A stretch of DNA of 64,000 nucleotides from Bacteroidota bacterium (GCA_030680835.1 JAUXUD010000027.1:1-64000); one strand, 5' to 3'. Positions 9,247 to 15,708 are shown, numbered from the stretch's first letter. Translations and numbers: made by a program. The notes: generated by a model not told the origin, from the sequence alone.

Positions 9247-9735
9247 ATGATCAGTGAAAAAAACATCTGGGATGCTTTAGAAACCGTGATGGATCCGGAA
9301 ATCCCAACCATTTCGATGGTGGATATGGGTATTATTACCGGTGTAATTTTAGCATCCGATAACAGCAAGGTATTTGTTGAAATGACCCCCACATTTTCGG
9401 GTTGCCCTGCTATCAGACAAATGGAACAAATGGTGCATACCCGATTAATCGAACTTGGAATTAAAGAAGTAGAAGTGCGCACAACTTTTAACAAACCCTG
9501 GAACAGCAATTTAATTACCGAACGCGGACGGCAGCATTTGTTAAAACACGGTCTGGCGCCTCCACCCAAACATCACGGAGAAATTACAAGTGAACTTCTT
9601 GAAAATATTGTTTGTCCGTTTTGCGGCAGCCATAATGTAGAAATGAAAACGCCTTTCGGTGCAACGCTTTGCAGAAGCATTCACTATTGCAATAATTGCC
9701 TGCAGGGGTTTGAGCAGTTTAAGCCCGTGGTATGA
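9247..9735 (+). CDS. PaaD/PaaJ-like MIP18-family protein with zinc-binding tail
   Basis: 162 residues, with a MIP18-type domain (VMDPEIPTISMVDMGI near the start, then TPTFSGCPAI) followed by a cysteine-rich tail (CPFCGS ... C ... CNNC). This matches PaaD, the protein thought to help mature or supply Fe-S clusters to the PaaABC(E) phenylacetyl-CoA epoxidase. The symbol is withheld because no other paa gene lies in the window. A general Fe-S maturation role, as for SufT/MIP18 proteins, is an alternative, though the C-terminal zinc motif favours PaaD. The start is chosen because a promoter sits at 9221-9228. The gene ends 43 nt before the rhomboid gene on the same strand. Confidence 0.85.
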   Translation: MISEKNIWDALETVMDPEIPTISMVDMGIITGVILASDNSKVFVEMTPTFSGCPAIRQMEQMVHTRLIELGIKEVEVRTTFNKPWNSNLITERGRQHLLKHGLAPPPKHHGEITSELLENIVCPFCGSHNVEMKTPFGATLCRSIHYCNNCLQGFEQFKPVV

Positions 9736-9745
9736 AAAGCAGAGG

Positions 9746-9760
9746 GCATGGGGCAGAGGG
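9746..9760. repeat. GCATGGGGCAGAGGG word, left of rhomboid gene
   Basis: A 15-nt word, part of a longer AGAGGGCATGGGGCAGAGGG tract, lies between the PaaD-like and rhomboid genes. Its exact reverse complement lies at 10867-10881, on the other side of the rhomboid gene. Confidence 0.8.
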
Positions 9761-9778
9761 TATGGAGGAGAAGTGATC

Positions 9779-10795
9779 ATGGTATTTACCGATAAACATG
9801 TTGAAGATTTTCCGCTGATTAATTTTAGCCGTGAAGAATTTCTGGTAATCGCATTTTTGGCAAGCAGGAAACTAAATTGGGAAATAATTCATATCAGCTC
9901 CAACGGGATTATTGCTCTGGCCGGAGAAGCCGGTGAGCATGGGCGTGCAGAGATTAAAATCAAAATTGAAAAAGGCCATGCCATTCTAAGCAGCTCTTCA
10001 AATATTGACAAGTCTGCAAGGAATAAACAAAATATTCATGATTTTCTATCGGCCGTTGAGGAAACAAATCCGTCCCTGACAGTGGAGCATGTGATATCCG
10101 TTTACCAGCAACTGCAGCCAAACTTTGTTTATGGCAAAGAAGATCTCCTCCAAACCCAACCTTTGTCAGTTAGCGCGCAATTGCGCGGTCTGTTTGCTAT
10201 TTTTATCCCCAAAGCAGGCTTTACCATTACTCCTTTATTGCTTGATTTAAATTTGTTTATTTTCATCATGATGGGTATAGGTGGTGTAAACATGATAAGC
10301 CCTGATCAGGAAAGTCTGCTGCATTGGGGTGCCAACTTTCGACCTCTAACCATGGAGGGGCAATGGTGGCGACTTCTAACCTGCTGCTTCCTGCATATTG
10401 GCATTGTTCATCTCCTCCTCAACATGTATGCGTTGCTTTTTATCGGCTATTTACTGGAACCTCTCTTAGGGAGTTTGAAGTTTATTGTTGCCTATCTGCT
10501 TAGCGGAATAATGGCAAGTATCACCAGCTTATGGTGGCATAACTTAAGCATTAGCGCTGGCGCATCGGGTGCTATTTTTGGAATGTATGGTGTTTATCTG
10601 GCCTTGCTTACTACCAATTTGATTGAAAAATCGGAACGCAAAACATTGTTAATAAGCATTGGAATTTTTGTAACCTATAATTTACTGAATGGCTTAAATG
10701 GTGCTGTAGATAATGCTGCACATTTAGGTGGTTTGCTTAGTGGGTTTATTATCGGTTATGCGTTTGTTCCTGCATTAAAGCAAGGGAAACGTTGA
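9779..10795 (+). CDS. rhomboid-family intramembrane serine protease
   Basis: A 338-residue protein. Residues 1 to about 145 are a soluble N-terminal domain, and the rest is six or more membrane segments. The active-site pieces are clear: GASGAIFGMYG with Ser263, and AAHLGGLLSG with His315, plus the oxyanion-side HIGIVHLLLNMYAL (His206, His211, Asn215). Rhomboids cleave membrane proteins within or near their transmembrane helices; the substrate here is unknown. The open frame extends upstream through the PaaD-like gene, but GGAGGAG 9 nt before the ATG at 9779 marks the start. The gene is flanked by inverted 15-nt words. Confidence 0.9.
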   Translation: MVFTDKHVEDFPLINFSREEFLVIAFLASRKLNWEIIHISSNGIIALAGEAGEHGRAEIKIKIEKGHAILSSSSNIDKSARNKQNIHDFLSAVEETNPSLTVEHVISVYQQLQPNFVYGKEDLLQTQPLSVSAQLRGLFAIFIPKAGFTITPLLLDLNLFIFIMMGIGGVNMISPDQESLLHWGANFRPLTMEGQWWRLLTCCFLHIGIVHLLLNMYALLFIGYLLEPLLGSLKFIVAYLLSGIMASITSLWWHNLSISAGASGAIFGMYGVYLALLTTNLIEKSERKTLLISIGIFVTYNLLNGLNGAVDNAAHLGGLLSGFIIGYAFVPALKQGKR

Positions 10796-10885: not shown

Positions 10886-11788
10886 CTACCTTTCAACCAC
10901 AAACATAAACGGTCTGAACCCAATGAAAGGTCCGCCCAAAATTTCTTCTTTAAACTCCGGTTCATCGGTATCAATTAACAGGTAATAACCCGGACTGATA
11001 TAACTTCCTCCTTTTGTTTTACCTTCTTCCAATATCAATTCGCTAACATTGCCGGCCATATGATATAACCCGTATTCATTTGGTTTGTACACATTTTTGG
11101 GGTTTTTAGTACAAGGTGCCTGATATATAAAACCGTCAATTCCAATGGCTGAAAAATGTATGGAGTCAACCACTTTTAAGTAGTAGTTGTCGTCTCTTTT
11201 TATAGCATTATCCAATAATGGTGCATAATTAGCCAGGTAGTTTCCTTTTTTATCTCTAAACCGTAAACCATCCCAGGGTAAAATTCTCTTTTCAAACGGA
11301 TAGGCATTTTTGGGCATAATTCCTTTGGCTGCAAATTTCCACTCATCGGCATCAGGCAACCTGAAAACAACTTTTTTAAATTTTCTGTTGCTGCTGGAAT
11401 TATATTTTAAAGTGAGCCAATCACAATATGCAATTGCACTGTAAAATGAAATATTTACAACAGGATAATTTGCATATTTCTGATGCCAGCCATAAACTGC
11501 TGCAATGGGTTCATTAAAACTCTGACTTTTTGGAAAAATCATTCTGAAATTCCATTTCGTTGAGTCGGGTCGGTGGGTTAAATAATTTATTTTATCCCCC
11601 TTTTCGAGAAACGAGTTTAAGAATAAACGGTATTGAGAATTTGAGCATTCGCACATGCTTGCAAATACCGAATCACCCTTGATGGGTTTGTATTGGGATT
11701 CAATTTGCTTCGCGAAATTTTTCGGATCCTGGGAATAGCAAAATGAATAATGAAATATTAAAAACAGGAATATTATTTGTGGTTTCAT
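10886..11788 (-). CDS. secreted FGE/SUMF1-fold protein
   Basis: 300 residues, with a signal peptide (MKPQIIFLFLIFHYSFCYS). The body has the formylglycine-generating-enzyme fold hallmarks: YPVVNISFYSAIAYCDWL, FRLPDADEWKFAA, EYGLYHMAGNVSELI, GGSYISPG and GFRPFM. In Bacteroidota such domains occur in real sulfatase activators and in structural proteins such as GldJ/GldK of the gliding/T9SS machinery. I do not see the paired active-site cysteines of true FGE near the end, so a non-catalytic role is more likely. The ATG at 11788 is chosen over an upstream TTG because that TTG overlaps the -7 box at 11807-11814. Confidence 0.8.
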   Translation of the reverse strand: MKPQIIFLFLIFHYSFCYSQDPKNFAKQIESQYKPIKGDSVFASMCECSNSQYRLFLNSFLEKGDKINYLTHRPDSTKWNFRMIFPKSQSFNEPIAAVYGWHQKYANYPVVNISFYSAIAYCDWLTLKYNSSSNRKFKKVVFRLPDADEWKFAAKGIMPKNAYPFEKRILPWDGLRFRDKKGNYLANYAPLLDNAIKRDDNYYLKVVDSIHFSAIGIDGFIYQAPCTKNPKNVYKPNEYGLYHMAGNVSELILEEGKTKGGSYISPGYYLLIDTDEPEFKEEILGGPFIGFRPFMFVVER

Positions 11789-11806
11789 GGCGGTTATAAA
11801 TGAAAA

Positions 11807-11814
11807 CAAATATA
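11807..11814 (-). promoter_or_regulatory. -7 promoter element of the FGE-like gene
   Basis: TATATTTG read on the minus strand, an exact consensus match 19 nt before the ATG at 11788. Its first base touches the end of the 68-nt palindrome. Confidence 0.65.
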
Positions 11815-11881
11815 ATAAAAATTCCTGTCGCGTGTAGGGACAGGTCGCGACCTGTCCCTACACGCGACGGGAATTTTTATT
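11814..11881. repeat. 68-nt near-perfect palindrome spanning a stop codon
   Basis: The centre is GGTCGCGACC at 11843-11852. Each arm is 34 nt, and pairing fails at only one position (11826/11869, a possible G-T wobble). The left end touches the -7 box of the FGE-like gene. The right end includes the TAA stop (11877-11879) of the preceding gene. It can act as a bidirectional terminator between the two tandem genes. The core words GTAGGGACAGG/CCTGTCCCTAC are, from memory, a common intergenic motif in environmental genomes. Confidence 0.9.
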
Positions 11882-14414
11882 TCCGAACAATCCGTTGGCT
11901 GATAATGTCTCCTTTATCGCTTTCGATAACCAGCAAATAAATACCGGGGGCAAGGTCGTTGATACGGGTTGCATGTTTATTTGAACCGCTTTCAAAAACC
12001 TTTTGATTCAAAATACTTTTTACCAATTGCCCGTTTACGGTATATAAATTTGCAGAGATTAATCGTGCATCGCTGAGTGTAAATTCTATCTGCAAATCAT
12101 CATCGGTTGGGTTTGGAAAAATATTATACGATTCAATTGCCCCTGGTTTATTTTTACAGGCTTCGAAGAATTTGCAGTTTGCACCATTGCTTTCTTTTTG
12201 CACAAAGATGCTTTGATACTCGGCGCGTAATTCATTTGCAATGCGGGGTGGTAAGGTCTTAAATAATAATTCTGTGGGTTCATACCAGATGATGATATCG
12301 GCTCGCCACAAGTTGTTTTTGTCATCATCTTTGTTATTTATATCTCCCGATCTTACCAGTATAGGAATATATCCACCGAGATTCGCTATTAATTTTCTTT
12401 CTCCTTCTTTCATGCCATTTGCCGATTTCTCCCAAGTAAGCGGGTTCAATTGATTTTTACGCATATATTCCCAGTCCTCTTTTGTAAGACCATCATCAAC
12501 CTCGTACATACGCCATTTTTGGCCAAGATCATCTGTGATAAGACTATAATGAGGGAGTTCAAAAGTGGAATCCGGAGCATCATTAAAATCACTGTAATCA
12601 ATAGTGTTAAAAGAATCTGAAGCCAATTTTATTTTGAACTGATTTTTAATTGACGAATTGTCATCAGGTTTCAAGTTAAAAGTAAACGATGATCCTTCCT
12701 TATTGTAGTTCGAATAAAATGGTTTTAATTTAACGCCTGGGATTGCATGTCCCCCTGATAACAAATGCACTGCTTTATCTGAAACCGTAATTCCAAACTT
12801 TTTAAGTTCAGCCGGTGTTAACTCAATCACTTTAATATTCCTTAAATCAATACTTCTATCAACTACTTCAGGCAATTTAGGTTCAGCCTTTACCAGCGGT
12901 AATTTATCTTTAGGCAAAGCCGCTAAAAATTCCGGAGTGGGTTCAAACCAAAATATTTTGGTAATAGGATTTGGTTTGGCCTTGGGTAAATGAATCTGTA
13001 CCGGAATTAATTTTTCCCTCATCCTATAAAAATAATGTTTTGCCTGATCATAATGATTAAAGCCCCTTATGTCCTCAGGTAAATTGATTTCTTTTATAAA
13101 CATTTCAATGCTTTGAATTTTTAAATCGGTAGCAAACATGGGAGAAAAACTTAAGCTTGTATATTTTCTTCTCTCATAAAAAGGAACATGATCCAAATAA
13201 GCAACAGAAATATAATATTCATTTCTTAGATCCATTTTTAAATATTTTTTTTCATCATATTTATTGGCATAATGCATGCTTTTTCCTTTACTCGAAAACC
13301 CTAGATTTTTAAGTTCCTTATTTGTGCATACCAATGTTCTTTGTAATATTTGTTTTGCCTGAATTGAATCAATATCAATGGATTTATTTATTTGCTTTCT
13401 TTCCTGAATCAATCTGGCTATAGTCGTTTCATAGATTGCCGCATCAAATTTACCATAGTATCTTGTAACCCAGTCTCGTTTATCAATGGGAAGTGCTTTT
13501 AAAAACTCCTCAGTTGGTTTGAACCAAAAAATCAAGTCATGATCTGTCCTTCCATAAATACTCTCTCGTCCAATCAAACTTATCTTTATAGGAATTAAAA
13601 ATGTTTTTGCTTCGGAAATATAGTGCTCACGCACACATCTATTTGCATTATTATCACAAAAATAAATCACATTTTCTCCAACTTTATGATATTTTTCTTT
13701 TTTCTCCGAAACATAAGTAATAATTCTTTCAACCATGGATGGTTGTACTTCCAATAATCTTTGATCTTTTATACTTGTATCCAACGATGCGCTTGTATAA
13801 GTAACACTTCCTCCTTCATAAGTCATTTTCAAATAAAAATAATGTGGAACCGTACTTAATTTCTTACGTTCAAATAATGTGGAATCCTTAGTGTTAATAT
13901 ACATCAACACATTCCCATCCGTATAAATATGCAAACCTCTTAGCTCTTCATTAGTTAAAATCAAATAAGGCTTTTCACCTTCCTGATCAACTTTAGGTTC
14001 AGTAAATGCAATAGAAAACTGCGTTGGAAACAATTGAGGATCGGAAGATGCAAACGGGTTTGTGAAAGAGTTATTTGCATCTGGTTTGGCTGCAACAAAG
14101 TTTGTTGCCTTCTTAACATTTACTGCTGCTAATATCGGATCAGCAATAATTTTCTTATCAGTTAATTTTTCAATTTGTTTTACAGGTTCAAAAACCTGTT
14201 CAGTTTTATGTAAGGGTAGCCAAAAAAATAAACTACTAAAAAATACAATTAATATGCTCATGATCAATACAGTTTTTAGGTTAAATAAATTAAATCTTTT
14301 GGGTGTATGAATCCCTTTAACCTTTAGCTGTAACTCAATATCCTCGCTCGATAACAGCGGTTCTGCATGGCGCGCAGTCTCAAACAATTTGTTTAAGTAT
14401 TGTTCTGTGCTCAT
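11877..14414 (-). CDS. membrane-anchored putative anti-sigma protein with three repeats and a T9SS sorting domain
   Basis: 845 residues. Residues 1-46 are hydrophilic with no signal peptide, followed by one membrane segment (about 47-67, TVLIMSILIVFFSSLFFW). Three related units follow: about 150-320, 360-502 and 532-723. Each opens with a T-x-x-EL-x-x-(L/F)G-type stretch and closes with (F/Y)xPTEEFLKALP-like motifs at 298-309, 490-501 and 711-722. The C-terminal about 80 residues (YNIFPNPTDDDLQ ... LAPGIYLLVIESDKG) are a type A T9SS sorting domain. The start overlaps the stop of the ECF sigma gene by ATGA, the coupling usual for sigma/anti-sigma pairs. A cytosolic tail, one membrane span and an outer domain fit an anti-sigma factor; no known anti-sigma domain is recognised. 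The sorting domain on such a protein is odd. Confidence 0.8.
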   Translation of the reverse strand: MSTEQYLNKLFETARHAEPLLSSEDIELQLKVKGIHTPKRFNLFNLKTVLIMSILIVFFSSLFFWLPLHKTEQVFEPVKQIEKLTDKKIIADPILAAVNVKKATNFVAAKPDANNSFTNPFASSDPQLFPTQFSIAFTEPKVDQEGEKPYLILTNEELRGLHIYTDGNVLMYINTKDSTLFERKKLSTVPHYFYLKMTYEGGSVTYTSASLDTSIKDQRLLEVQPSMVERIITYVSEKKEKYHKVGENVIYFCDNNANRCVREHYISEAKTFLIPIKISLIGRESIYGRTDHDLIFWFKPTEEFLKALPIDKRDWVTRYYGKFDAAIYETTIARLIQERKQINKSIDIDSIQAKQILQRTLVCTNKELKNLGFSSKGKSMHYANKYDEKKYLKMDLRNEYYISVAYLDHVPFYERRKYTSLSFSPMFATDLKIQSIEMFIKEINLPEDIRGFNHYDQAKHYFYRMREKLIPVQIHLPKAKPNPITKIFWFEPTPEFLAALPKDKLPLVKAEPKLPEVVDRSIDLRNIKVIELTPAELKKFGITVSDKAVHLLSGGHAIPGVKLKPFYSNYNKEGSSFTFNLKPDDNSSIKNQFKIKLASDSFNTIDYSDFNDAPDSTFELPHYSLITDDLGQKWRMYEVDDGLTKEDWEYMRKNQLNPLTWEKSANGMKEGERKLIANLGGYIPILVRSGDINNKDDDKNNLWRADIIIWYEPTELLFKTLPPRIANELRAEYQSIFVQKESNGANCKFFEACKNKPGAIESYNIFPNPTDDDLQIEFTLSDARLISANLYTVNGQLVKSILNQKVFESGSNKHATRINDLAPGIYLLVIESDKGDIISQRIVRK

Positions 14415-14971
14415 AACATTTCTCCTATTTTTATGTCGCTGCCCTGCCCCATTTTTTCTGCTTTTTGTAGTCGCATTACATCTTTTTCCAGCAAGGCTTT
14501 TAACGATTGTCTTGCTTTAAATATGTGCGACTTTACATTACTCAAATTTGTTTGTTGTATGCCTGCTATTTCTTCATAGCTAAATCCTGCCACTTCATAT
14601 AAGGTGATGGCTTCCTGTTGGGCAGGTTTTAATTTGCTTAACAGAGTTGCTAACTCACGTTTCTGTAAGGTTTCATCTGCCTCAATGGATCCCTTTATCT
14701 CCTCCATGCTATCCGCATTCCAGGGAAGCTGGAATTTTTGCCTACGCAGTTTTTTTAAATACAAATTGCGGGCAATGCCAAATAAATAATAAACAAAGTG
14801 ATCGGCTTGTTTCAGGCGTTCAAAATTTTCAAACGCATTCAGGGTAATATCACTGATTAAATCTTTTGCATCATCGGGCTGCCAAACCAGCGATTGCACA
14901 TACCTGCACAACCTTGCATGCACAGGTTTATACAGATTCATGAATTGCTCGTTTTTATCTAAAGGCACCAA
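14411..14971 (-). CDS. ECF RNA polymerase sigma factor
   Basis: A 186-residue sigma-70 family factor with only regions 2 and 4. Region 2 is visible as MNLYKPVHARLCRYV through DDAKDLISDITLNAF and YYLFGIARNLYLKKLRR. Region 4 is KLKPAQQEAITLYEVAGFSY then EEIAGIQQTNLSNVKSHIFK, the helix-turn-helix that reads the -35 element. It directs RNA polymerase to a small regulon, probably including its own operon. Its stop overlaps the start of the 845-residue membrane protein (14411-14414), which is the likely partner that holds it inactive. No target promoter can be defined from the window. Confidence 0.93.
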   Translation of the reverse strand: MVPLDKNEQFMNLYKPVHARLCRYVQSLVWQPDDAKDLISDITLNAFENFERLKQADHFVYYLFGIARNLYLKKLRRQKFQLPWNADSMEEIKGSIEADETLQKRELATLLSKLKPAQQEAITLYEVAGFSYEEIAGIQQTNLSNVKSHIFKARQSLKALLEKDVMRLQKAEKMGQGSDIKIGEML

Positions 14972-15162
14972 AACACGTTCAGGTTAAAGGGCTCATACAT
15001 CAGTAAGTTCCACGGGAAGGTATAAAAGTTATCGGATGAAAGATAAATAATTACAGTTAATTGACTATCAGTTCATAAAAAACATTTCCTGCTTTTCATT
15101 GTATTGCTGCCAAAAGTCAAAAGATAGCTGTAACCAAACCTTGTTGCTTTTAGGGAAGCTTT

Positions 15163-15708
15163 TTACAAATTGTTTTTCCTGAACCCAATTAATTTACGGT
15201 TTTTATCATTTTCATGAATAAACTGGTTCAGGTAATCAAAAACCAACTGGATATTCTTATCCTGCTTGCCAATCTTCTTGTTCATTTCTTCCATCTTCAA
15301 TAATATATCTTTATGGGTATAAAGCATTTCACGTAAACGTGTATAAATACGCATAATTTGAATATTTACCTGTATTGCACTTTGGCTGTTTAAAACACTT
15401 GAAAGCATAAGCACTCCATGCTCAGTGAAAACAAGCGGAGCTTTCCTCATACCCATATTTATGGAATTGGATATCACAAATTGTGATTTCCAATTTTTGA
15501 ATTCTTTGTCTGATAGTTGAAACATAAAATCCCCAGGAAACCTGTCCGGGTTTCTCCTTACTGCCTGATTCAAAACCCTTGTTTCCACACCATATAGTTC
15601 AGCCAGATCCCGGTCTATCATTACCTTTTGTTTTCTGATCAGGTAAATCTTGTTCATTACAATTTCATCAGGATGTGTAACCTGATTGTTCCTTTTTCTG
15701 TTTGCCAT
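15163..15708 (-). CDS. ORF6N-domain DNA-binding protein
   Basis: 181 residues. The N-terminal ORF6N domain (KIYLIRKQKVMIDRDLAELY, then RRNPDRFPGDFMFQLSDKEF and PLVFTEHGVLMLSSVLNS) is a KilA-N-like DNA-binding module first known from phages and large DNA viruses. It is common as a chromosomal stray gene in Bacteroidota. The C-terminal third is a coiled-coil-like KMEEMNKKIGKQDKNIQLVF. Function is unknown; phage-derived regulation or a mobile-element remnant are the usual guesses. There is no phage gene nearby. A 34-nt stretch of its coding sequence (15465-15498) recurs beyond the uvrA stop at 15909-15942. Confidence 0.85.
   Translation of the reverse strand: MANRKRNNQVTHPDEIVMNKIYLIRKQKVMIDRDLAELYGVETRVLNQAVRRNPDRFPGDFMFQLSDKEFKNWKSQFVISNSINMGMRKAPLVFTEHGVLMLSSVLNSQSAIQVNIQIMRIYTRLREMLYTHKDILLKMEEMNKKIGKQDKNIQLVFDYLNQFIHENDKNRKLIGFRKNNL

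Follow-up and report, generated by a model that had tools for sequence, protein, structure and literature searches.

A membrane-anchored partner of an ECF sigma factor that ends in a type IX secretion sorting domain: a candidate anti-sigma factor found across families of Bacteroidota

Introduction

A class I anti-sigma domain is found nearby in only ~6% of Bacteroidetes ECF sigma factors (PMC7406223), and how most of these sigma factors are controlled is, therefore, an open question. We analysed a 64,000-nucleotide stretch of a Bacteroidota genome (GCA_030680835.1, JAUXUD010000027.1:1-64000), hereafter the window, in which an ECF sigma gene overlaps the gene of a membrane protein that ends in a type IX secretion system (T9SS) sorting domain. 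An initial annotation had proposed that this protein is an anti-sigma factor and, at the same time, a T9SS client that reports on secretion. Does the partner regulate the sigma factor, is it retained in the membrane, and what would a sorting domain do at the far end of a regulator?

The sigma gene and its putative promoter

The first gene of the pair (14411..14971, minus strand) encodes 186 residues from a TTG start; residue 11 is encoded by a further ATG. Its product matches Pfam Sigma70_r2 and Sigma70_r4_2 (PF04542 and PF08281, over the cut-off) and, thus, contains regions 2 and 4 but lacks region 3, the layout of an ECF sigma factor. The second gene, on the same strand (11877..14414), encodes the partner, a candidate anti-sigma factor of 845 residues whose architecture is conserved. 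The sigma stop and the partner start have an ATGA in common, an overlap that was already annotated and that held when the reading frames and coordinates were re-checked.

A putative sigma-dependent, auto-regulatory promoter, AACTTTTATACCTTCCCGTGGAACTT(ACTG), lies 5' of the sigma gene (15005..15030, minus strand). In the window, as in three relatives (G018, G007 and G014A), the sigma gene has the pattern AACTTT[TA]-N11/12-GGAACTTACTG on its 5' side; G008, G001 and G385 have variants of it. This recurrence suggests autoregulation, with the sigma factor driving its own operon from the putative promoter. A genome-wide regulon search with the pattern retrieved 7 matches, compared with 7 in a reversed-pattern control; apart from the sigma factor's own promoter, the other six lie inside genes and none is in a promoter, and no T9SS gene in the genome was linked to the pattern.

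Architecture of the partner

The partner was initially described as a cytosolic tail of 46 residues, one membrane span, three repeats and a terminal T9SS sorting domain. This plan is confirmed, with a tail of 45 residues. The tail (residues 1-45; 14280..14414, this and all following partner features being on the minus strand) is predicted to form two helices, at residues 3-15 and 23-32 of a low-confidence AF2 model, and is a candidate sigma-binding module. The only hydrophobic segment starts at approximately residue 47 and corresponds to a single membrane helix (residues 46-66; 14217..14279), with a Kyte-Doolittle peak of 2.43 and an AF2 helix at 46-65. In many partners, a K-x(3-5)-M-[ST] motif occurs at the start of this helix (residues 47-53 in the window, at ~14259), a possible intramembrane cleavage site. 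Between the helix and the repeats runs a variable tether of ~80 residues (67-147; 13974..14216), which is probably disordered, with pLDDT values mostly of 20-25 and ~15% identity to other genera.

The three repeats are real, as all fit one profile. R1 covers residues 150-310 (13485..13967; R profile match and alignment A8), R2 residues 363-510 (12885..13328; R profile match) and R3 residues 526-738 (12201..12839; alignments A7 and A8). AF2 modelled the full-length partner poorly (mean pLDDT 52), whereas a model of residues 357-512, comprising R2, reached a pLDDT of 87 and a pTM of 0.83. Neither Foldseek nor a second aligner returned a convincing PDB match for the R domain, nor did sequence profiles, a result that argues for neither a novel fold nor a familiar one.

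Just N-terminal of the sorting domain, a C-x5-C junction (CKFFEAC, residues 747-753; 12156..12176) contains two cysteines that are invariant, together with E751 and the PNP at 767-769, in ten proteins from five families. The type A sorting domain itself occupies residues 765-845 (11880..12122). Por_Secre_tail (PF18962) matches residues 765-843 with 43.6 bits (cut-off 27) and is the sole Pfam match in the partner; the NCBIfam profile TIGR04183 is also over its cut-off, with 39.4 bits. The domain is modelled as an Ig-like sandwich, for which the PorU C-terminus scores a Z of 8.5, tied with many Ig folds.

Membrane retention and the sigma-linked tail

A sorting domain would be expected on a protein with a cleavable signal peptide, which, together with loss from the membrane, the initial annotation had named as incompatible with its proposal. 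We located the most hydrophobic 12-mer in 37 partners and found that it starts at residue 45-79. Among 21 ordinary sorting-domain proteins with a complete start, encoded in the same genome as the window pair, the median start is residue 6, with one outlier at 49 whose start codon looks misplaced. This difference argues for an N-terminus that is an anchor with a cytosolic tail, not a signal peptide, and the partner is thus predicted to be retained in the membrane, so that the sequence speaks against the incompatible case.

A profile of tail and helix (70 positions, without R or sorting domains) was searched against the class. All 29 of the fetched loci (E up to 2e-4) lie directly 3' of an ECF gene, while their ectodomains differ and many lack R or sorting domains. 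The common tail pattern consists of two short amphipathic stretches, roughly LxxLFxxAR...PLLsxxEIxxLL, followed by K-rich residues and the helix. No curated anti-sigma profile of Pfam or NCBIfam (class I, FecR, RskA) matched the tail, whereas FecR and RskA_C do match other ECF partners in the same genome. Measured against other genera of the family, the tail shows ~26-31% identity and the sorting domain 28-32%, with R3 at 27-30% and the tether at ~15%. These values indicate that the tail and the sorting domain are constrained while the tether is not, the sorting domain being conserved as well as R3.

Conservation of the pair beyond chance adjacency

Adjacency in a single genome carries little weight here. 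The genome encodes at least 150 proteins with PF18962 matches over the cut-off and 14 ECF genes (15 region-2 matches including the primary sigma factor) so that, assuming ~3,700 genes, ~0.6 to 1 ECF gene would adjoin a sorting-domain gene by chance. We, therefore, rejected any significance drawn from this one adjacency, which is near the expectation, and the case rests on conservation.

Within the genus (19 genomes), an orthologous sigma factor (E<1e-36) is found only in the six genomes that have the partner, which contain seven pairs, and in several of them shared neighbours, PaaD-like, PAP2-like or glycosyltransferase genes, flank the pair. The full form, with R1, R2, R3 and sorting domain, occurs at 24-29% identity in three genomes of two other genera. 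Farther away, a partner profile without the sorting domain had matches in 14 out of 395 genomes of the class, and an R3 profile ending before the sorting domain had matches in 17 out of 395 genomes of the phylum. Of the matching loci, 31 were fetched and examined with profiles for sigma, R and sorting domains; since the sorting domain had been left out of the search profiles, its presence at these loci is an independent result. Pooling the genus, the family and the fetched loci, some of them from Bacteroidota MAGs, we count 28 pairs in which the partner has a terminal sorting domain. They represent ten GTDB families (f1, f38, f53, f56, f89, f91, f94, f99, f103 and f114), and the genes overlap or nearly overlap in most pairs. 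The count of ECF genes next to a one-span protein with a T9SS domain, which the initial annotation had proposed as a check, thus gives the arrangement in at least ten families.

Some partners (G014B, G008 and G032) have only R1 and R2, without R3 and sorting domain, and keep the tail, the helix and the sigma factor; the sorting domain is, therefore, not needed for pairing. Conversely, in G571 (L199:2250-3125) the start of an R and sorting-domain protein resembles a signal peptide, and the 6 kb fetched contain no ECF gene, so that R domains also occur outside anti-sigma partners. Three of the loci are affected by assembly: the G372 contig looks rearranged or misassembled, and the G018 and G392 loci are cut by contig ends.

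The T9SS itself is present in the organism, as indicated by a full-length SprA (TIGR04189). All 37 genomes screened contain SprA, both those with the pair, without exception, and the controls that lack the pair, so its presence is consistent with the proposal and does not discriminate.

One genome (G014) carries two tandem pairs (L062:9222-14207), one partner having R3 and the sorting domain and the other R1-R2 without them. The sigma and partner copies cluster alike, each with the other's relatives, in line with co-inheritance, although several forks are weakly supported. From pairwise matches we had suspected that the window gene was a fusion of a type B-like and a type A-like half, such as those of the G014 pairs, and this idea was dropped. 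Because the full form with R1, R2, R3 and sorting domain exists in other genera (G072, G067 and G079), losses explain G014 better than a fusion, and its halves are apparently reciprocal losses from a full-length ancestor.

A second ECF pair with a type B signal

The genome of the window contains another, independent ECF pair, on contig 30 (G000:C30, ~119.9-121.5 kb; L056:4390-5973). The 306-residue partner begins with a tail unlike that of the window protein, followed by one helix and ~130 variable residues, and ends in a type B T9SS signal (CHU_C, E 8e-16), the only domain recognised in it. Among the neighbours of the pair are two genes of the PorP/SprF kind, the second of them PorP/SprF-like, and a GldK-like FGE gene. 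An ECF gene lies directly 5' in 24 of the 25 fetched loci of its homologues in the family, the remaining locus being cut by a contig end, and CHU_C is present in all six homologues tested.

Four further ECF partners of the genome (at L048, L049, L052 and L055) have C-terminal stretches that resemble outer-membrane beta-barrels (PF13568/PF13505), one of them over the Pfam cut-off. By this resemblance, they may be similar to the dual membrane-spanning (Dma) anti-sigma factors discussed below.

Surroundings of the locus

Just 3' of the partner stop codon there is a terminator-like, 20-pair perfect inverted repeat around GTAGGGACAGGTCGCGACCTGTCCCTAC (11824..11871, both strands), which occurs once in the window and is possibly a dispersed repeat. 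Directly 3' of the partner, an FGE-sulfatase protein like GldK/PorK is encoded (10886-11809, minus strand), with 113 bits to TIGR03525, below the cut-off of 350; the gene is absent from the equivalent place in G018. A rhomboid intramembrane protease gene (9659-10795, plus strand) lies ~1 kb from the 3' end of the partner, a place that it does not occupy in G018, G007 or G014. A role for either neighbour was considered and rejected, given that neither stands between the pair and the conserved neighbour in these three genomes. On the other side, just 5' of the sigma operon, is an ORF6N-domain (phage antirepressor-like) gene (15163-15708, minus strand), which was not seen at the equivalent place in G018.

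In several loci outside Bacteroidia, the partner is followed by a VIT domain protein (L180 and L181, and probably L183, L196, L198 and L199). The domain is Pfam-confirmed in L180 and L181 only, L180 also having a VWA domain. This protein may be a target of the system or act as one of its co-components.

Proposed mechanism and rival readings

Judging from the conserved pairing and the predicted anchor, the partner is very probably the regulator of the sigma factor, retained in the membrane and bearing a real, conserved sorting domain. To this extent, the initial proposal stands; that the protein reports on secretion is one of two live readings, the other being that it senses events at the surface. 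The model we favour, to which we assign a probability of roughly one half as a whole, is that of an anti-sigma factor anchored in the inner membrane whose C-terminus is handled by the T9SS and for which an event at that end frees the sigma factor. The short two-helix tail would keep the ECF sigma factor at the inner membrane, the hydrophobic helix would act as an uncleaved anchor, and the disordered tether would cross the periplasm. The R domains and the sorting domain would be taken up by the T9SS, through the SprA translocon and the PorV shuttle, and would end up either lodged in the outer membrane or exposed beyond it. There, the trigger could be a ligand on the R domains, an envelope disturbance, or the T9SS engaging and processing the sorting domain. 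Release would probably proceed by regulated proteolysis, after which the sigma factor would transcribe its own operon and further targets. Sigma binding, T9SS engagement, the spanning of both membranes, the release mechanism and the regulon are steps that we infer.

What the event at the C-terminal end would be is where the two live readings part. The partner may be a tethered decoy client, its sorting domain sampling the translocon or shuttle, so that the sigma factor would respond to the activity or capacity of the T9SS and not to a ligand; the fate of the anti-sigma factor would then change when the sorting domain is pulled, jams or is processed by PorU. The strongest argument for this interpretation comes from the type B partner, as the lack of a recognised domain between helix and sorting domain leaves the latter as the sole candidate input, and its pair sits beside PorP/SprF and GldK-like genes. 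There is also a precedent in PorA, a sorting-domain protein upstream of PorXY-SigP (PMC7712824). However, the three conserved R domains of the window protein exceed the needs of a decoy, and the sigma promoter pattern, with as many matches as its control, is linked to no T9SS gene, which makes secretion reporting a possibility that we hold with some doubt. Surface sensing would fit equally well, considering the R domains, the Dma precedent and the cell-surface location of PorA.

Two further readings dispense with the T9SS as part of the signal. Were the partner an ordinary one-span anti-sigma factor that stays in the periplasm, its R domains would sense a periplasmic signal and the sorting domain would be an incidental, folded end piece. 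This would agree with the relatives that stay paired with a sigma factor without the sorting domain and with the non-sorting-domain ectodomains of tail-sharing partners elsewhere. We consider it unlikely, however, as the sorting domain is kept with all its motifs in ten families, as well conserved as R3, and a type B domain occurs independently on another ECF partner. Far less probable still is that an ordinary T9SS cargo came to lie after a sigma gene by chance, with a long N-terminal extension, a helix cleaved as a signal peptide and an exported product. The at least 150 sorting-domain proteins of the genome make a chance neighbour likely, and the G571 protein combines R and sorting domains with a conventional start. 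Against this, the tail and helix are conserved and linked to an ECF gene in 29 out of 29 loci, the hydrophobic segment starts at 45-79 instead of a median of 6, and most pairs overlap or nearly so.

On our preferred reading, the sigma-partner pair would be one concrete, phylum-wide module of ECF control and a testable direct link between type IX secretion and transcription, through which the cell may read outer-surface events, or the secretion machine itself, with one envelope-spanning molecule. A more speculative extension, which we advance only tentatively, is that Bacteroidota possess a class of anti-sigma factors that are tethered T9SS clients, of types A and B, for which engagement of the translocon is the signal. 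If true, each such sigma factor would sense directly what state the secretion machine or shuttle is in, via one protein reaching from the cytosol to the cell surface.

Comparison with known systems

In a literature search covering few subscription papers, we found no anti-sigma factor with a T9SS sorting domain described. The partner shares the sorting domain, with all its motifs, with ordinary type A cargo (Por_Secre_tail), which begins with a cleavable signal peptide (PMC9143113), but differs from it in having an anchor after a 45-residue tail. The characterised sorting-domain proteins in PMC9143113 and PMC12618676 all have a cleavable signal peptide, and uptake of an anchored protein by the T9SS is, accordingly, a putative step. 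At the cytosolic end, the tail is comparable to CnrY (PMC4598750), which also has a very short cytosolic part with two helices, those of the partner being a low-confidence prediction. CnrY, however, belongs to a metal-sensing system of Proteobacteria, and the likeness, which is one of size and not of demonstrated sequence relation, makes the tail at most a candidate class II domain.

In Porphyromonas gingivalis, T9SS genes are controlled by PorXY-SigP, upstream of which acts PorA, a sorting-domain protein that binds PorV (PMC7712824). In both systems a T9SS sorting-domain protein is placed upstream of an ECF sigma factor, by prediction in the case of the partner. PorA differs in having a signal peptide and in being a separate cell-surface protein that signals through a two-component route, whereas here the sorting domain is on the sigma factor's own membrane partner.

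The closest plan is that of the Dma anti-sigma factors, in which a membrane helix and a disordered tether connect an anti-sigma tail to an outer-membrane barrel; when Dma1 or Dma2 is lost, the cognate sigma factor becomes active (PMC13088901). A pair similar to Dma has been reported in P. vulgatus (PMC9308784). The partner shares with the Dma proteins a cytosolic end, one helix, a long disordered tether, a C-terminus that is, or here would be, bound for the outer membrane, and a gene 3' of an ECF sigma gene. It differs in ending in a T9SS sorting domain behind R domains where Dma ends in a beta-barrel; its route would be the T9SS, while that of Dma would be the barrel-assembly machinery, and the likeness is one of plan. 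With a T9SS address in the place of the barrel, this shared plan suggests, by analogy, that the T9SS would handle the C-terminus. Based on its domain content, the partner is thus Dma-like and not a Dma member, since its C-terminus is PF18962 and not a barrel. Two-membrane anti-sigma factors may, then, have three outer-membrane addresses: the beta-barrel known from Dma, the type A sorting domain and the type B sorting domain.
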